Assembly (NCBI RefSeq): GCF_964355755.1
Contig: NC_092679.1
Coordinates: 16,544,932-16,608,931 of the forward strand
Source of the DNA: Antedon mediterranea
Lineage: Eukaryota > Echinodermata > Crinoidea > Comatulida > Antedonidae
DNA length: 64,000 bases
Direction: 5' to 3'
In this document: piece after piece, positions 1-34,682 of the stretch
How positions within the stretch are numbered: position 1 is the stretch's first letter
Layout: each line of letters opens with the position of its first letter
Notes under the pieces: model-generated
Seen by the model: the letters and a program-made list of their open reading frames with translations, nothing else
Databases searched by the model: none
What the model was told of the DNA's origin: nothing
Position numbers and translations under genes: made by a program

Positions 1-1427
1 AAAGTGGATATCACTATTATGTGACATTAAAATTGCATATTCAACAAAAAAAAATGTAAAAAAAAATGTTGATAATGATGATTCCATACAATAACAAGGA
101 CTAAATATTGCGGATAACTAATACAGATTTTATACAATAAAAATAGGTGATCATTTAGAATATAAAATGATTCACCATGATAAAAAGGTCCATAGCAGAA
201 ATTGAACTATTAACTATTTGTGTAATTGTTATTACACCAATGGTTCATAGTTCAATTTAACTCCCATTTACAAATTTTGTATTGCAATTAGCATAATCGA
301 ATTCGGCACTAAGACACACAAATAAAAAAAAAGAGATTTACATTAACAGTAGACGGACGTAACTCTCGGGGTGCCCGTCTAGTTAAATTATTTATTGGTG
401 AACATTATTTTTCAGCTTTTCACCATGTGTTCTTATACAAATGCTAACATCGGTTATACCATGTATTTGGATCTTGGAACTTAATGTCTATCATATAAAT
501 CTAGAGAAATTTGAACCGAAGTATGACTCCAGTATAGTGTTAATGGACAACACAACTACAAATTATTTTGTAACTGTAAGAATTCTTTACAATTTCTTTT
601 AATGATAATAATATTTGTTGGGTCTTTCATTTCATCCGTATTTTTTTACTATTGACTAAAAAGAATTACATTGCTTCTCAAGAGCATTGTTCAATTTAAG
701 AATTGTCTAAGATCTCTAATTCATTCTAATGAAAGCTAACTCTGCTAACAATTGGAGATGAGGGAATCACTGAAAGCCTCGAAGAGTAAGATCCAAAACA
801 ACTAGTATATTAGGTGGGGTTGACAAAGCTAAAACAATGTCTAAACGTAATAATGTTAGCAACGTTTGCAACAACGCCGTAGAAAACAAGGCCATATAGA
901 TGACTGCAGTCGCGTGCTCAAGTTAGTGTTTACCGACCAACTGACCGACCAACCGACCGAAATTGCTGAACATGTTTAAAAATGTTGAAAATGTTGAAAA
1001 ACATTTTTATTTTTTTAATTTACACACGTGCGTAGCTTGTCTCTTTTGACGTGCTCGTATAACGTAATTTTGAGTTGAAAAGTGAATCAAATATGATGAT
1101 ATTATTATAGAAAAGTTGTAAAACAGAAATCGGGCAAAAAGAGTGCATATTAACATTTAACGCGCAGTGCGCGTGCAAAAATCTGCGCACTCATGGCAAT
1201 TTTTGAAACGCTTAAAATTGCCTTAAACGTTGTCTTATTTCATCAAAAAAAAAATAAATAGAAAATTTTAAGCGCGCGTACGCATGCGTTACGCACGTAA
1301 TTGTATTGCCATATGATGATTTATGCCCTGAAATTTATGAGTACCAAATTTTATTTAATTGTGATTCATGCTTGTGAAGATATGATTACAAACATGATTT
1401 CGTTAAATCGTGCGTAGACCGCGTAGG
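1..1427. other. Non-coding, AT-rich stretch with repeat debris
   Basis: I see no credible coding exon here. The stretch contains a short GACCGACC-rich motif near 930-960 that recurs near 2190-2210, which suggests two copies of one dispersed repeat. At 1020-1300 there are several GCGC-rich alternating purine-pyrimidine patches in otherwise AT-rich DNA. Upstream exons of the TMEM26-like gene could lie here or outside the window; none was recognised. Confidence 0.5.
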
Positions 1428-2049: not shown

Positions 2050-2378
2050 GTATTATTTAATATTATTAATTTTTGATGGCGCACCGTGAAAACATAACCA
2101 CATCGATTCCTGGCCATAAGGAATACACTGTGAAAAACTGACTTACCTAGGTGAAACTGATATCAAGACAAGGCCATATACAAGTTAGTGTTTACCGACC
2201 GACCGACCGACATAGTGAGCTGTAGAGTCGCGTTGAACGCGACTAAAAATACTGTAATGATAACGATATCACTGTCCTATAAAGCAAAGTTTCACGTGAC
2301 ATGGAGATTTAACAATATTCTAATAAATGACTTTAAATTTTATAAACTAAATTTATTGCGCTTTACATTTTTTTTCAG

Positions 2379-4565
2379 ACGAGCAGTGATCGTGTCTTTG
2401 ACCCACTTTCAGTAATAGCGCAGCAGATCTTCATATTTGTTCACATCATTGGCAGATTCTTTCTTCTAAGAAGGCGCATTTCTCCTGATAAACTGTCAAA
2501 ACTGTTATTCATGTATATTGGCATGGCAGCTGACATCTTTGTGTTTATCACCGAAGGACTGAATGTAGTCTACATCAAGGATTCTGATGAAAGTACGATG
2601 TATATGATCTTGAGTATCTGGTCATGGAGTATGTTGCAGTTTACCATCGGTCTAACGTTAACAAAACGTCGCAAGACTCGAGCAGTTAGTGGTACTGTTA
2701 CGCACTCATATCGACGTTTCTTTGAAACGGACGTATGGGCAATAATGATAACAGTGATAATGCAGGATGGTCCGTTTCTTGCCATGAGAATTTATATAAT
2801 CACACAGTTTAATTTCATATCACAGATGTGGTTGTTCTTCACAGCCAAAAATGCACTTGTTATACTTCTTCAATTATTTCGCCTGATCGTTCTTTATGGT
2901 GCTATCAAAGAAGAAGACAGAACATCTAGTTTTACTACAGAACACACAGGAGAAGATCGTGATGTTGCTGACAACAATGGGACAAATGAACACGTTCCTT
3001 CTGATGCTATTAAAGAAGAAGACAGAGAATCTAGTTTTACTACAGAACACACAGTAGAAGATCGTGCTGTTGCTGACAACAATTCGACAAAGGAACACGT
3101 TCCTTCTGATGCTATCAAAGAAGAAGACAGAGAATCAAGTTTTACTACAGAACACACAAGAGAAGATCGTGATGTTGCTGACAACAATGGGACAAAGGAA
3201 CACGTTCCTTCTGATGCTATCAAAGAAGAAGACAGAACATCTAGTTTTACTACAGAACACACAGGAGAAGATCGTGATGTTGCTGACAGCAATTCGACAA
3301 AGGAACACGTTCCTTCTGATGCTGTCAAAGAAGAAGACAGAGAATCTAGTTTTACTACAGAACACACAGGAGAAGATCGTGATGTTGTTGATAACAATGG
3401 GACAAAGGAACACGTTCCTTCTGATGCTATCAAAGAAGAAGACAGAGAATCCAGTTTTACTACAGAACACACAGGAGAAGATCGTGATGTTGCTGACAAC
3501 AATGGGACAAAGGAACACGTTCCTTCTGATGCTATCAAAGAAGAAGACAGAGAATCTAGTTTTACTACAGAACACACAGTAGAAGATCGTGATGTTGCTG
3601 ACAACAATGGGACAAAGGAACACGTTCCTTCTGATGCTATTAAAGAAGAAGACAGAGAATCTCGTTTTACTACAGAACACACAGTAGAAGATCGTGATGT
3701 TGCTGACAACAATTCGACAAAGGAACACGTTCCTTCTGATGCTATAAAAAAAAAAGACAGAGAATCTAGTTTTACTACAGAACACACAGTAGAAGATCGT
3801 GATGTTGCTGACAACAATGGGACAAAGGAACACGTTCCTTCTGATGCTATTAAAGAAGAAGACAGAGAATCTAGTTTTACTACAGAACACACAGTAGAAG
3901 ATCGTGATGTTGCTGACAGCAATTCGACAAAGGAACACGTTCCTTCTGATGCTATCAAAGAAGAAGACAGAGAATCTAGTTTTACTACAGAACACACAGG
4001 AGAAGATCGTGATGTTGCTGACAACAATGGGACAAAGGAACACGTTCCTTCTGATGCTATTAAAGAAGAAGACATAGAATCTAATTTTACTACAGAACAA
4101 ACAGGAGAAGATCGTGATGTTGCTGACAACAATTCGACAAAAAAACACGTTCCTTCTAATGCTATCAAAGAAGAAGACAGAGAATCTAGTTTTACTACAG
4201 AACACACAGTAGAAGATCGTGATGTTGCTGACAACAATGGGACAAAGGAACACGTTCCTTCTGATGCTATCAAAGAAGAAGACAGAAAATATAATTTTAC
4301 TACAGAAAACACAGTAGAAGATCGTGATGTTGCTGACAGCAATTCGACAAAGGAACACGTTCCTTCTGATGCTATCAAAGAAGACAGAGAATCTAGTTTT
4401 ACTACAGAACACACAGTAGAAGATCGTGATGTTGCTGACAACAATGGGACAAAGGAACACGTTCCTTCTGATGCTATCAAAGAAGAAGACAGAGAATCTA
4501 GTTTTACTACAGAACACACAGCAAAAGCCGGTGATATTGCTGTCATTGGGATAAAGGAACATTGA
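2379..4565 (+). CDS. TMEM26-like: TMEM26-like membrane protein, last coding exon (5' exons missing)
   Basis: A polypyrimidine tract plus CAG at 2376-2378 gives a clean splice acceptor, and the frame stays open to TGA at 4563-4565 (728 codons). The first 174 residues carry about five hydrophobic segments, e.g. AQQIFIFVHIIGRFFLL, a MYIGMAADIFVFITEG segment, WAIMITVIMQDGPFLAMR and MWLFFTAKNALVILLQLFRL. The DGPFL and FFTxKNxLVxLLQLxRL blocks are what I recognise as the C-terminal half of TMEM26, a multipass membrane protein of unclear biochemical role. After the last membrane segment the protein runs directly into an acidic 35-residue repeat tail that vertebrate TMEM26 lacks as far as I know. The Met at codon 45 (2511) is internal to the exon and is not the true start. 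The N-terminal half must be encoded upstream and was not found in 1-2378. Confidence 0.8.
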   Translation, partial: TSSDRVFDPLSVIAQQIFIFVHIIGRFFLLRRRISPDKLSKLLFMYIGMAADIFVFITEGLNVVYIKDSDESTMYMILSIWSWSMLQFTIGLTLTKRRKTRAVSGTVTHSYRRFFETDVWAIMITVIMQDGPFLAMRIYIITQFNFISQMWLFFTAKNALVILLQLFRLIVLYGAIKEEDRTSSFTTEHTGEDRDVADNNGTNEHVPSDAIKEEDRESSFTTEHTVEDRAVADNNSTKEHVPSDAIKEEDRESSFTTEHTREDRDVADNNGTKEHVPSDAIKEEDRTSSFTTEHTGEDRDVADSNSTKEHVPSDAVKEEDRESSFTTEHTGEDRDVVDNNGTKEHVPSDAIKEEDRESSFTTEHTGEDRDVADNNGTKEHVPSDAIKEEDRESSFTTEHTVEDRDVADNNGTKEHVPSDAIKEEDRESRFTTEHTVEDRDVADNNSTKEHVPSDAIKKKDRESSFTTEHTVEDRDVADNNGTKEHVPSDAIKEEDRESSFTTEHTVEDRDVADSNSTKEHVPSDAIKEEDRESSFTTEHTGEDRDVADNNGTKEHVPSDAIKEEDIESNFTTEQTGEDRDVADNNSTKKHVPSNAIKEEDRESSFTTEHTVEDRDVADNNGTKEHVPSDAIKEEDRKYNFTTENTVEDRDVADSNSTKEHVPSDAIKEDRESSFTTEHTVEDRDVADNNGTKEHVPSDAIKEEDRESSFTTEHTAKAGDIAVIGIKEH
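2901..4562 (+). repeat. In-frame 105-bp (35-aa) tandem repeat, 15 full units plus a partial
   Basis: The unit begins AIKEEDRESSFTTEHT and continues GEDRDVADNNGTKEHVPSD. Fourteen units are exactly 105 bp, the 15th is 102 bp (one Glu codon lost, at 4371-4472), and the 16th degenerates into the C-terminus. Units differ at few sites: E/T at position 8, G/V/R at 17, N/S at 25, and G/S at 27. The G/S change replaces GGG with TCG. The tail is acidic, hydrophilic and predicted to be disordered, and lies on the same side as the protein's C-terminus. High similarity between units implies recent expansion or concerted evolution. Confidence 0.95.
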
Positions 4566-4685: not shown

Positions 4686-5230
4686 AGCGGCCACCTCCCT
4701 TAATTAGTACATTTGGTACCTTCCGTAAGGGGCCACCTCCCTTAATTAGTGCATTTGGTACCTTCAGTAAGCGGCCACCTCCCTTATTAGTGCATTTGGT
4801 ACCTTCCGTAAGCGGCCACTCACCTTATTTAGTGCATTTGGTACCTTCCGTAAGCGGCCACCTCCCTTATTAGTGCATTTAATACCTTCCGTAAGCGGCC
4901 ACCTCCCTTATTAGTGCATTTGATACCTTCCGTAAGGGGCCACCTCCCTTAAGTAGTGCATTTGGTACCTTCCGTAAGGGGTCACCTCCCTTAATTAGTG
5001 CATTTGATACCTTTCGTAAGCGGCCACCTCTCTTAATTAGTGCATTTGGTACCTTTCGTAAGCGGCCACCTCCCTTAATTAGTGCATTTGGTACCTTCCG
5101 TAACGGGCCACCTCCCTTAATTAGTGAATTTGGTACCTCCCGTAAGCGGCCGCGGCCACTTTTTTTTTTACAAAAAATTAGATTTTTTGTATGGTAAATT
5201 ACCTCTCGTAAGCGGCCACCCGAAAAATTT
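4686..5230. repeat. Minisatellite, 41-42 bp unit, about 11 copies
   Basis: The unit reads GCGGCCACCTCCCTTAATTA then GTGCATTTGGTACCTTCCGTAA. Eleven tandem copies cover 4686-5147 with point changes and 1-bp indels; a broken copy (GCGGCCGCGGCC, poly-T, then CGTAAGCGGCCACC) extends to about 5220. Almost every copy has a GGTACC. The array starts only ~120 bp after the TMEM26-like stop codon, so it probably lies in or next to that gene's 3' UTR. Confidence 0.9.
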
Positions 5231-19181: not shown

Positions 19182-22143
19182 ATGGCCAACAAATCGATTG
19201 AGCTTCAAGAAGAAGAAGAAGAAGGAATTATGATGGACCAGTCACAACAAGAAGAAGAAGGGTAAGTCTTTAGGCTAGTTTAGGCCTCGGGCTTTTCTAA
19301 TGTAGCCTGCCCTAACTAAGCCTAGGGCCAGGCCTACTACTAGCCTAGGCCTAGCCCTAGCCTAGGCCTAGCCTAATACTTAATAGGCCTAGGACTTAAA
19401 AAACTTTAAAGAGTTTGTTTTACCAATATTATTAGGGTCTAGGCCTAGGCCTAGGCCTACTCTGGCCTAGCCTAGGCTAGCTAGCTAGGCCTAGTAGGCC
19501 CTAGGCTAGCCTACCTGCCTAGGCTAGGCCCAGATAGTAGGTAGCTAGCTAGCTAGCTAGGCCTAGCCTCTCGTCTAGGCCTAGCTTAGTAGGACTAGGC
19601 TAGGCTAGGACTATACGCTAGCTAGAGGGCCTAGCCTAGGCGCGCCTTAACTTAGGCCTACTAGTAGTAGCTAGCTAGGCCTAGGCCTAGCCCTAGATAG
19701 GCCCTAGCTAGGCCTACTAGGTCTACCTAGGGCCTAGGCCTATATAAGTATAGTATAGGCTAAGTATAAATAAGTATATGCCTACCTGTCCTAACTAGGC
19801 CTATATAGGATATGCCCATGGGCCCTAGCCTACTAGCCTAGGCCTACCTAGATAGGCATCATATAGGCTAGGTAGGTAGGCCTAGTTTAGGGCCTAACTA
19901 AATAGGCCTAGGCCTATAGCTAGGCTAGGCGGCAGGCCTAACCCTAGGCTAGACTCCTAGTTTTCTTTTAGTTAGGGATAGTCTATTATATAGTATAATA
20001 GGAGCTAGGCTAGCTAGGATAGGACCTAGCCATAGTAGGCTATGTCTATACTACTCTAGGCTAGGCCTAGTAGTAGGGCCTAGCGTGATAGTAGGCTAGT
20101 AAAAAGTAAAATATAGATAGGCTAGCCTAGACTACTAGCTAGGGTCTGGCCTACTGACTAGATCATATAGCATAGGTAGAGATGAACCTACTAGTACTAC
20201 CTAGACTACTAGGCCTACTTAGTTACTAGGCCTAGCTATCAACAAGCTAGGAGTTGAGCTAGCTAGCTAGCTAGGGAGTTACTACTAGCATAACCATAGA
20301 ATAGGCCTACTTATTATTAATATATACTAATTAGGCCTAGCTAGTAATAATAGACCCTTGCATGTAGCCCTTTAAAAACTAACCTAACCATTTAGTTAGG
20401 TATGATTTACAGTTCAAGATATGACTGTAAGGGCCTAGTAACCTAGTATTGGGCATCTCTCTGTAGTCTAGTACTACTAGTAGGAAGTAGACAGCTTATG
20501 TAAGTTCTAAGTACCACACACAAGACTAGCTCTAGTAGTAGCAATACTGTAGGTTACTTATACCAAGCTAGCTGGGGGAGCATATTCTTAATCTTATTAT
20601 ACAGATCTTATTAAATTATTATTATTGAGTAAATATATTGTGAATTTTGTTTCTCCAATTAAGTAGATCTCAACCAGATGCACCACAGCAAGCAAGAAGA
20701 AAGTCAGTATTTGGAAGGATTTGGGCAGCAGTGCTTCATCTTTTGTGTATCAGAAGCGACGAATCATCGGATAGCAACTTAAGTTCGTCATCGTTGTCAT
20801 CATCATCATCGCCATCTCTATCAGCGGGCACAGTGTCGGCATCACTGTAAGGGGTACACGTATCAGTACGACAGTCATCATCAAAGTCTCTATCAAAGTC
20901 ATCAAGATCACATTCGTCTCTGTGGCCAATGTCATCCACATCGTCATCTTCAAAATTTGCGCTTTTTCCAGGCCAGATACTTACCACACCAGGTCTATCA
21001 CCAGGGGAGGTGATTCTCCCAAAGCAACGTGTGTATAGCTCGTCGTCGTCATCATCTTCATCGTCTACCGCTCCGGTCCAGCGTATTTTCAGACAACCAA
21101 CATCAGAGTTATCACCCGGTGAGATACTAGAAAGGAGTGTGCCATCATCGTTATCATCGCAATGGCCATTGTCACCTGCCAGTAGCTTCAATGGTTCGTC
21201 CCGTTCTTCGAAAAGTAACACCACCACTTCAACACCTAAACCCGTCCTTAACGATATAGAGGCTACAATAAAACTTGCTGACATTCTGCCGCCTGCTCGG
21301 TTATTAGTTAGTTCAAGTGTTTCCCACCTTAGTAATCCTGTACGTCTTGGACAGGGAAGTTTTGGCCGCGTTGACCTGATGACATCCGATCTTTTTCCAG
21401 GCCACTATCACCTCGTCGCAGTCAAGACGGCTTCTTTGAACAGTTATAGCAATCCTAATCATGCATGGGCCAAGATGCTGGCAGAAGCGCGTGTGATGAA
21501 GTTTTTAGACGATCTGCCTTCTGTTCCTCGCGTCTTTGGCGTCTTCCGCCAAGGTGACATATGCTGTATGGTGCAGGAGTTTATCGGAAATACCTTCAGC
21601 CTTTCCAGTACCACATTCCTGGATGTATTGCGAACCGGACAGCCGTCTTTGAGCGCGCTTGAATGTATCTCTATGACATCAGAGGTTGTCATTGCGCTCA
21701 ACGAAATGCACAAACGCGGGATTCTTCACAACGATGTAGCTGCGAGAAACATTCTGATCCACCACGATGGAACCAGCTACAGAGCGAAGCTTACAGACTT
21801 CGGGATGGCATGCAGAGTAGAATATCCAAGAGGTAACAGAAAGGTAATTTTTTCATCGATGGACGAAGTAATTCAATACATGGATAATCATCCAGAGGTA
21901 GCACCAGAAAAATACATTGACGGTGCTTGCGATTCTGTTAGCGGTGACGTGTATTCCATCGGTTATGGTATACGTATTGTAGGAGTGGCAATTAGACATA
22001 GTGACATGGTTGAATTTGGAAAGGCTTGTGCATGTTTCGACGCAGAAGATCGACCATCTCTGGATTGGGTAATCAACATCTTGGACATCTATAAAGAAAA
22101 GGAGAAGAGCAATCCAAAATGCCAGGGTATCAACGGGCCTTAG
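19182..22143 (+). CDS. Serine-rich protein kinase-like gene, frame interrupted by an in-frame stop
   Basis: Exon 1 (19182-19261) starts MANKSIELQEEEEEG; its GTAAGT donor joins in phase to an acceptor AAGTAG at 20664-20666. Exon 2 continues SQPDAPQQARRKSVFGRIWA and a Ser-rich run, then meets TAA at 20848-20850. The same frame reopens and runs to TAG at 22141-22143. Taking Met 20929 as residue 1, a Ser/Pro-rich linker (1-125) precedes a kinase domain: LGQGSFG 140-146, VAVK with Lys166, Glu186, HNDVAARN 267-274, DFG 290-292, APE 325-327, Asp340. The HxDVAARN form resembles tyrosine kinases; the HRD arginine is Asn. I cannot assign a named family. AATAAA is at 22193-22198. The stop may be read through, avoided by an unseen splice form, bypassed by starting at 20929, or mark a decaying gene. 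Confidence 0.7.
19300..20560. repeat. CTAGGCCTAG low-complexity tract
   Basis: About 1.2 kb made largely of the palindromic words CTAG, AGGCCT and TAGGCCTA in changing order, e.g. CTAGGCCTAGGCCTAGGCC near 19439. It fills most of intron 1 of the kinase gene. Smaller islands of the same words occur at 16185-16200 and elsewhere in the window. Confidence 0.9.
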
Positions 22144-33400: not shown

Positions 33401-34654
33401 TTATGTCATAAAAGAATGTGGATCTTTTGGGGTTTTATGAAGCGATGAGAAAACACCAATATGATCAAAAAGATTCGGCACCACTAAATACTGCTTAAGA
33501 GATACGGTTTTAAAGAACCTACTTATGGCAACATCCAATGGAAAAGTTGTATAGCACTGTATACCATTCAAGTGGTATTCCAAATTCTGTAAAAACTCTG
33601 TTTTATAAAGCACCGCTGGTATGCAGCATTCTGGAGCACCGGTAACTGTGTAGAAATCCGGGAAGACTAACCTAAGCCACAACAAATATGGCCGTCCGAT
33701 AACAAACATTAAAAGTCCGAAATAAAACGAGCACAACGAATACAACAGAATGCGCTGAGGGGTAGTCATAAACTTGACAAATATGTTAAAAATAGCGTAA
33801 AGAACACCGCCACCAAGCAAACCAGTGGCAATAAGCTCTAAAATTAGGTTATTGTCCGTCCCGTAACCTTCCCATTTTTCAGGAAAATAAAATTTCAAGG
33901 ATGCTAAATTATCTAAGTTTTTTTCAAGTCTATCATGAATAAATTTATTCTCTATTCTAGTATTTACTATCCGATCCAAGTGTTTTATAAACTGCGGATA
34001 CGGTAAGGCATCATCCTGAACGAGGATAGAATACGTTGCGTTAAATTTGCGCATTTGATTTATGCAAAAGACGTAATCCTGTTTTTCCTGTTCCCGTGCA
34101 TGAACTGTACGCCGGTTAGTTGATTCTATTGGTTGCTTCTGAACTGACGGAACATATCTTGATAACTTTATAGCTGCTTCATGTTCCTCCGGCTCCGTCT
34201 GCGCATTACAGATAAAAAATAAAATATCTTTTCTATTGTGCTCTACGAGTAGTTGATCAAATTTGGCAACAACACGAGGTAGGTACTGTGGTGAATATGC
34301 CTCAGAATTCTTATCCACTGTATGCCTACTAACAGTGATAACTCCAATGGCATATTTTGGTTTCTTTTTAGTAAAAGCTTCCTCATAGAAATTTCTTTCT
34401 TTTAAGTCCTCCATTTCTGAGAAATACTTATAAGCTGCCTCCCCTTCAAGCCTGTCTTTTTTTATCGCCACGTCAAGAGTATGTGTGCTTTTTCCTCGGA
34501 TGTAGTACCTCGAGAATGGTAGATTCCAGCATGTTATCGGTAATATTAGGCCAAATGTTAAAATGTATAGCACAACAATTATTTGGATTATATAACTGAA
34601 TTTTTTAAACCTCATCTTCCACTTCCAGGTCAACCTACCATGGCAACCTACCAT
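33401..34654 (-). CDS. PGAP4: PGAP4 (TMEM246), Golgi GPI-GalNAc transferase; single coding exon
   Basis: Adds the N-acetylgalactosamine side chain to GPI anchors in the Golgi. The 417-aa frame (human about 403) has the family's unusual layout: an N-terminal membrane segment (residues ~19-42), a split GT-A glycosyltransferase domain, and a pair of membrane helices inserted within it (~270-294 and ~301-326). The metal-binding acidic motif is QDDALPYP (213-220). KPKYAIGVITVSR and DKNSEAYSPQYL are further recognisable blocks, as is FYTVTGAPECCIPAVLYKTE after the insertion. The start may be MVGCHGRL (34654) or the later MRFKKFSY (residue 14). An acceptor (TTTATTTTCAG) ends at 34682, so at least one 5' UTR exon lies upstream. 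Divergent from CEBPZ, about 1 kb away. Confidence 0.93.
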   Translation of the reverse strand: MVGCHGRLTWKWKMRFKKFSYIIQIIVVLYILTFGLILPITCWNLPFSRYYIRGKSTHTLDVAIKKDRLEGEAAYKYFSEMEDLKERNFYEEAFTKKKPKYAIGVITVSRHTVDKNSEAYSPQYLPRVVAKFDQLLVEHNRKDILFFICNAQTEPEEHEAAIKLSRYVPSVQKQPIESTNRRTVHAREQEKQDYVFCINQMRKFNATYSILVQDDALPYPQFIKHLDRIVNTRIENKFIHDRLEKNLDNLASLKFYFPEKWEGYGTDNNLILELIATGLLGGGVLYAIFNIFVKFMTTPQRILLYSLCSFYFGLLMFVIGRPYLLWLRLVFPDFYTVTGAPECCIPAVLYKTEFLQNLEYHLNGIQCYTTFPLDVAISRFFKTVSLKQYLVVPNLFDHIGVFSSLHKTPKDPHSFMT

Positions 34655-34669
34655 CAGTTGTTCATCAAA
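34655..34669 (-). promoter_or_regulatory. Minimal upstream ORF overlapping the PGAP4 start
   Basis: The spliced leader reads ATGAACAACTGATGG on the minus strand: a three-codon ORF (M-N-N-stop) whose TGA overlaps the ATG of PGAP4 (TGATG). This arrangement permits termination-reinitiation; a regulatory role is inferred only. Confidence 0.5.
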
Positions 34670-34682
34670 ATCTTATTTTACC

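Follow-up and report, generated by a model that had tools for sequence, protein, structure and literature searches.

We identified, in a 64,000-nucleotide stretch of the Antedon mediterranea genome (the window; C10:16544932-16608931, in a genome of 354 Mb and 18 contigs), a TMEM26-family gene whose last exon runs on into sixteen tandem copies of a 35-residue unit, the last of them divergent and shorter. The array looks, from sequence comparison, as though an inherited C-terminus with two copies had recently expanded, because the adjoining sister gene, L003, carries two copies of the unit, the window gene is without the linker that precedes them in L003, and a genome search gave no further copy of the unit. 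The best explanation overall, which we consider likely, is that the gene is a coding paralogue whose tail grew recently, probably varies in length and is weakly constrained. In this tandem pair a short, ancestral-looking C-terminal motif sits beside its own expansion, making the origin of a long coding repeat, and likewise its effect on a membrane protein, directly open to study.

The window holds a TMEM26-family gene with a repeat tail

Residues 13-168 of exon 3 match positions 130-285 of the Pfam Tmem26 domain (PF09772) at 147.1 bits (E 9.6e-43; curated cut-off = 22.2 bits), which bears out the TMEM26 identity that a sequence-only reading had given to the membrane part of this exon. The upstream TMEM26 exons that the same reading presupposed were also found, with matching splice phases; they contain the part of the domain before position 130 and were located by comparison with L003 (C10:16538363-16542257), which lies 2 kb upstream on the same strand. 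With the exons joined by this comparison, the gene has an intact three-exon model of 848 codons without a stop (Table 1). Exon 2 is bounded by the acceptor TTTTTCAG/C and the donor ACT/GTAAGA (slashes mark the exon boundaries), with phases that match L003. Exon 3 begins in phase 0 at 2379 after ...TTTTTTTTCAG, and the open frame at 2346-4565 contains zero internal stops. Splice sites are canonical across the gene, and its intron phases are the same as those of L003. In a maximum-likelihood (ML) tree of the membrane part the two genes were joined with support of 99/98, and their DNA is 75% identical across the initial 585 bases of the exon 3 region. By this gene model, the repeat gene is a complete TMEM26-family gene and the tandem sister of L003.

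Table 1. Features of the repeat gene. Positions are those of the window unless a contig is named.
Feature	Position	Strand	Description	Evidence
Exon 1	C10:16544229-16544428, just upstream of the window			Found via L003 exons
Exon 2	416-575	+	Helix 3 and the loop after it; sequon Asn-Thr-Thr at protein residue 112	tblastn with L003 exons
Exon 3, membrane part	2379-2900	+	174 residues spanning TMEM26-domain helices 4-8	Pfam PF09772, paralogue alignment, hydropathy
Fifteen near-identical units	2901-4472	+	14 x 105 bp and one of 102 bp; consensus AIKEEDRESSFTTEHTVEDRDVADNN[GS]TKEHVPSD	TRF, in-frame unit table, identity
Last divergent unit and stop codon	4473-4565	+	30 residues; its counterpart is the last L003 unit, which likewise ends after a KE motif	Unit table, L003 tail

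TMEM26 is described as conserved among animals and of unknown function in PMC3182993 and PMC5122400. The former gives 5-8 predicted helices and lengths of 367/368 residues for the mouse and human proteins, with no recognisable domain beyond the hydrophobic segments; its available text mentions no repeats, and it reports a single orthologue in most animals and several paralogues in zebrafish and Ciona. Eight hydrophobic segments, the multi-pass topology expected of TMEM26, are present in both the window protein and the L003 protein. The window gene resembles TMEM26 (PF09772) in its domain match, its eight predicted helices and a sequon in the helix 3-4 loop, whereas it differs by its 16-unit acidic tail and is without several residues kept in the genome's other paralogues. 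TMEM26 and coding minisatellites are each already known; for a TMEM26 protein with a repeat tail we found no precedent in the literature searched, which was covered in part.

A Pfam search of the genome gave 28 TMEM26 exon matches, including 13 different last exons (the window's counted). The genes number about 13 in total, more than the single orthologue that PMC3182993 reports for most animals, and several occur in tandem clusters (C10:20126665-20139932, C9:1410163-1420505 and C3:2124471-2135470). One paralogue, L005 (C10:1581999-1582493 and following), has short acidic C-terminal repeats of its own (about 18 residues, P about 0.02) that are unrelated in sequence to the 35-residue unit, and acidic repeat tails may recur within the family.

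The array is a coding minisatellite that probably grew at least partly by pairs

TRF detected 15.8 copies of a 105-bp repeat at 2888-4542 (93% matches, score 2862). Cut in frame, positions 2901-4562 comprise 14 units of 105 bp, one unit of 102 bp, in which an in-frame 3-nt deletion leaves 34 codons instead of 35, and, at the end, a diverged unit of only 90 bp. Units 1-15 have a mean pairwise DNA identity of 94.6% (range 88.6-100%), and the tail of about 555 residues makes up 76% of exon 3. The sequence-only reading had placed the repeats within the TMEM26 exon, in one continuous frame, starting directly after the last helix and forming a long soluble acidic tail. TRF together with the open frame agrees with this placement, the repeats do start directly after the helix, and the tail carries a net charge of -95.

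As an in-frame period of 105 bp (35 codons) in near-identical tandem copies, the array is a coding minisatellite. It shares its in-frame unit, near-identical copies, unit multiplication and association with disorder with known coding minisatellites and disordered-region repeats (the Prdm9 array, PMC3890296; a census, PMC7230257), and differs from them in that its unit is not a folded zinc finger, is without a known target and is seen here in one assembly. Units alternate between G and S types (NNG/NNS) in the order GSGSGGGSGSGSGSG (P 0.006), with one break, at unit 6, and with the alternation resting on few nucleotide sites; unit identity is likewise higher at even lags (2, 4, 6, 8) than at odd lags. 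Both patterns suggest that the array grew at least partly by pairs.

The tail is predicted to be a flexible cytosolic chain

Hydropathy divides the protein into eight segments, with basic residues in the even loops, which would face the cytosol if the protein is so oriented. The sequon NTT at 112 lies in the helix 3-4 loop, as does the N-110 site of human TMEM26, which is N-glycosylated and belongs to a domain presumed to extend outwards (PMC5122400). Because of the eight helices, the basic even loops and this correspondence of sequons, we infer that the C-terminus, and with it the tail, would be cytosolic. All full units (15/15) carry N-G-T or N-S-T, sites that would not be used since the C-terminus is predicted to be cytosolic, and an extracellular glycosylated tail is not preferred, as the eight helices and basic even loops place the tail in the cytosol.

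The tail falls on the disordered side of a charge-hydropathy plot. AlphaFold run without an alignment, where disorder and lack of information are not separable, gave a pLDDT under 50 for the tail in the exon 3 model and a mean of 48.7 for five units alone. A fold search with the exon 3 model (pLDDT 61.5) returned no match at E <= 0.001, and a sequence search of solved structures returned nothing relevant (best E 1). A Pfam match of the tail to NAD_binding_11 was rejected: one stretch reached 30.8 bits against a cut-off of 30, and the two-unit consensus gave no match. Two antisense open frames over the array (558 and 489 aa) are not evidence of a gene, because any stop-free frame stays open along a repeat whose unit length is divisible by three.

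Comparison of units 1-15 shows 21 distinct nonsynonymous and 6 synonymous changes, where 5.6-6.9 synonymous changes would be expected without constraint, and no purifying selection on the tail's amino acids was detected in this variation. Taken with the structural predictions, the tail is most likely a long, flexible acidic cytosolic chain with little constraint on its letters. It would carry about 15 copies of a short segment with the core S-[SG]-F-T-[TK]-E, which the old L003 copies also have. Its length probably drifts, since its amino acids have been without detectable constraint since the expansion.

A different explanation is that the length of the tail is itself selected, as a multivalent binding or spacer segment, and that the expansion was adaptive. 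In its favour, the core is common to the old L003 copies and the new units, and the frame is open through all 16 units. However, the ratio of nonsynonymous to synonymous changes is that expected without constraint, and the open frame adds little evidence, since with so few changes an array would escape stops with a chance of about one half. We regard selection on length as possible but unlikely, and a multivalent or spacer function for the tail is speculative. The more specific proposal, that the array is a cytosolic tail of variable length under selection, holding many copies of a binding motif with this core, of which the sister has two, is in our judgement quite unlikely. Should the motif bind something, the sixteen-copy tail would be a good bait for a TMEM26 partner, and were the tail selected, the pair would offer a natural experiment on multivalency as well as a way into TMEM26 function.

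Constraint on the membrane part is uneven

The window gene has an ML branch five times longer than that of L003 (0.84 vs 0.17). At 45 family-invariant positions, defined by agreement in 11 or more of the 12 other members, it keeps 34 residues and departs at 11, nine of them in helices 4-5; the other members change 0-6. Against L003, dN/dS was 1.19 in exon 1 (0.61-2.42), 0.79 in exon 2 (not clearly below 1) and 0.63 in helices 4-6, and fell to 0.13 in helices 7-8 (0.04-0.34), a ratio that mixes the branches of both genes. All indels relative to L003 (8/8) are in frame, the sequence has no stop, and 120 random neutral substitutions left the sequence stop-free in only 0.9% of simulations. Because of these in-frame indels, the small chance of remaining stop-free and the low ratio in helices 7-8, the window gene has most likely remained a coding gene, under strong constraint in helices 7-8 and little in the first helices. 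Its role as a TMEM26 protein may be changing or being lost, as dN/dS in exon 1 is about 1 and 11 family-invariant residues are lost.

Outright decay, in which the TMEM26 role was lost after duplication and the array grew under little constraint, would account for the long branch, the changes at invariant positions concentrated in helices 4-5 and the exon 1 ratio. It fits poorly with an intact frame and splice sites, with indels that are all in frame and with the constraint on helices 7-8, mixed as that ratio is between the two genes, and we consider it conceivable yet improbable.

The array probably descends from a two-unit end shared with the sister gene

Units of the array differ by a mean of 5.4%, whereas the sister genes differ by 0.56 per synonymous site, so the present array either is young compared with the duplication of the gene or continues to be homogenised. 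The recent growth proposed from the sequence alone thus holds relative to that duplication. Near-identical units are a known hazard for assembly, and copies could have been added or collapsed; but units carry private changes, one has an in-frame deletion, the 1.7-kb array is short relative to long reads and the 354-Mb assembly consists of 18 contigs, making an artefact very unlikely, although the exact unit number may be off.

L003 resembles the window gene in exon structure, phases, near-identical helices 7-8 and two 35-residue units at its C-terminus, which corrects the earlier description of a family without repeats. It differs by a slow branch, by two degenerate units (KSGFTKEHT... and ESGFTKEND...) instead of sixteen, and by a kept linker of 189 residues between helix 8 and these units. 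The self-similarity of the two L003 units was reached by 0/200 shuffles. Aligned to a dimer of the window unit, the two-unit stretch scored 114, a value to be compared with at most 57 among 3000 shuffles; the linker gave no match to the dimer. In DNA, the end of L003 matches the window repeat with E about 7e-18 over 234 bp. When the unit was searched across the 354-Mb genome, only the window array and the L003 C-terminus matched, and among 11 other TMEM26 paralogue tails tested none clearly has it (L009 reaches only P 0.02). Aligned as a pair, the L003 units gave seven hits of 66.8-82.5 bits in the even-odd phase and 56.8-71.1 bits in the other phase, and there are hints, from few diagnostic bases, that the G and S types descend from the two old copies. 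Acquisition of the repeat from another genomic locus, through fusion or insertion, which the abrupt start after helix 8 and the missing linker might suggest, is extremely improbable, as the unit is homologous to the L003 C-terminus, the genome search found no other copy, and the two genes agree in their order and in the context of the stop.

For the expansion of an inherited end that we prefer, the common ancestor most likely had a linker of about 190 residues and two diverged 35-residue acidic units before the stop, as L003 has now. We infer that a gene with this two-unit C-terminus was duplicated, and that the window copy then lost the linker and expanded its units. That the linker was lost and not gained is suggested by the one sister gene and by the long non-repeated tails of the more distant paralogues L002 and L004. 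The junction between helix 8 and unit 1 (GTTCTTTATGGTGCTATC) resembles a unit boundary (GTTCCTTCTGATGCTATC); the linker would have been lost in frame, joining such a boundary-like sequence to the end of helix 8, perhaps through recombination at this short similarity. Unequal exchange or slippage, acting largely on pairs of units, would then have built up the 105-bp coding minisatellite.

Other features of the window

A second tandem array (42 bp x 11; 4686-5151) begins 120 bp after the stop codon, and fragments of its unit are scattered over about 30 further genomic sites. It was considered as part of the repeat gene and rejected, as it looks like an amplified dispersed element. On the + strand at 20851-22140, a long open frame encodes a protein kinase domain after a serine-rich stretch and is overlapped by an aspartate-rich antisense open frame of 222 aa. 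A 423-aa open frame on the - strand at 33404-34672 has hydrophobic stretches and no Pfam match, and by eye only resembles PGAP4/TMEM246. Within intron 2 of the repeat gene, at about 1430-1730, a tRNA-like head followed by a SINE-typical tail was recognised, by eye only.
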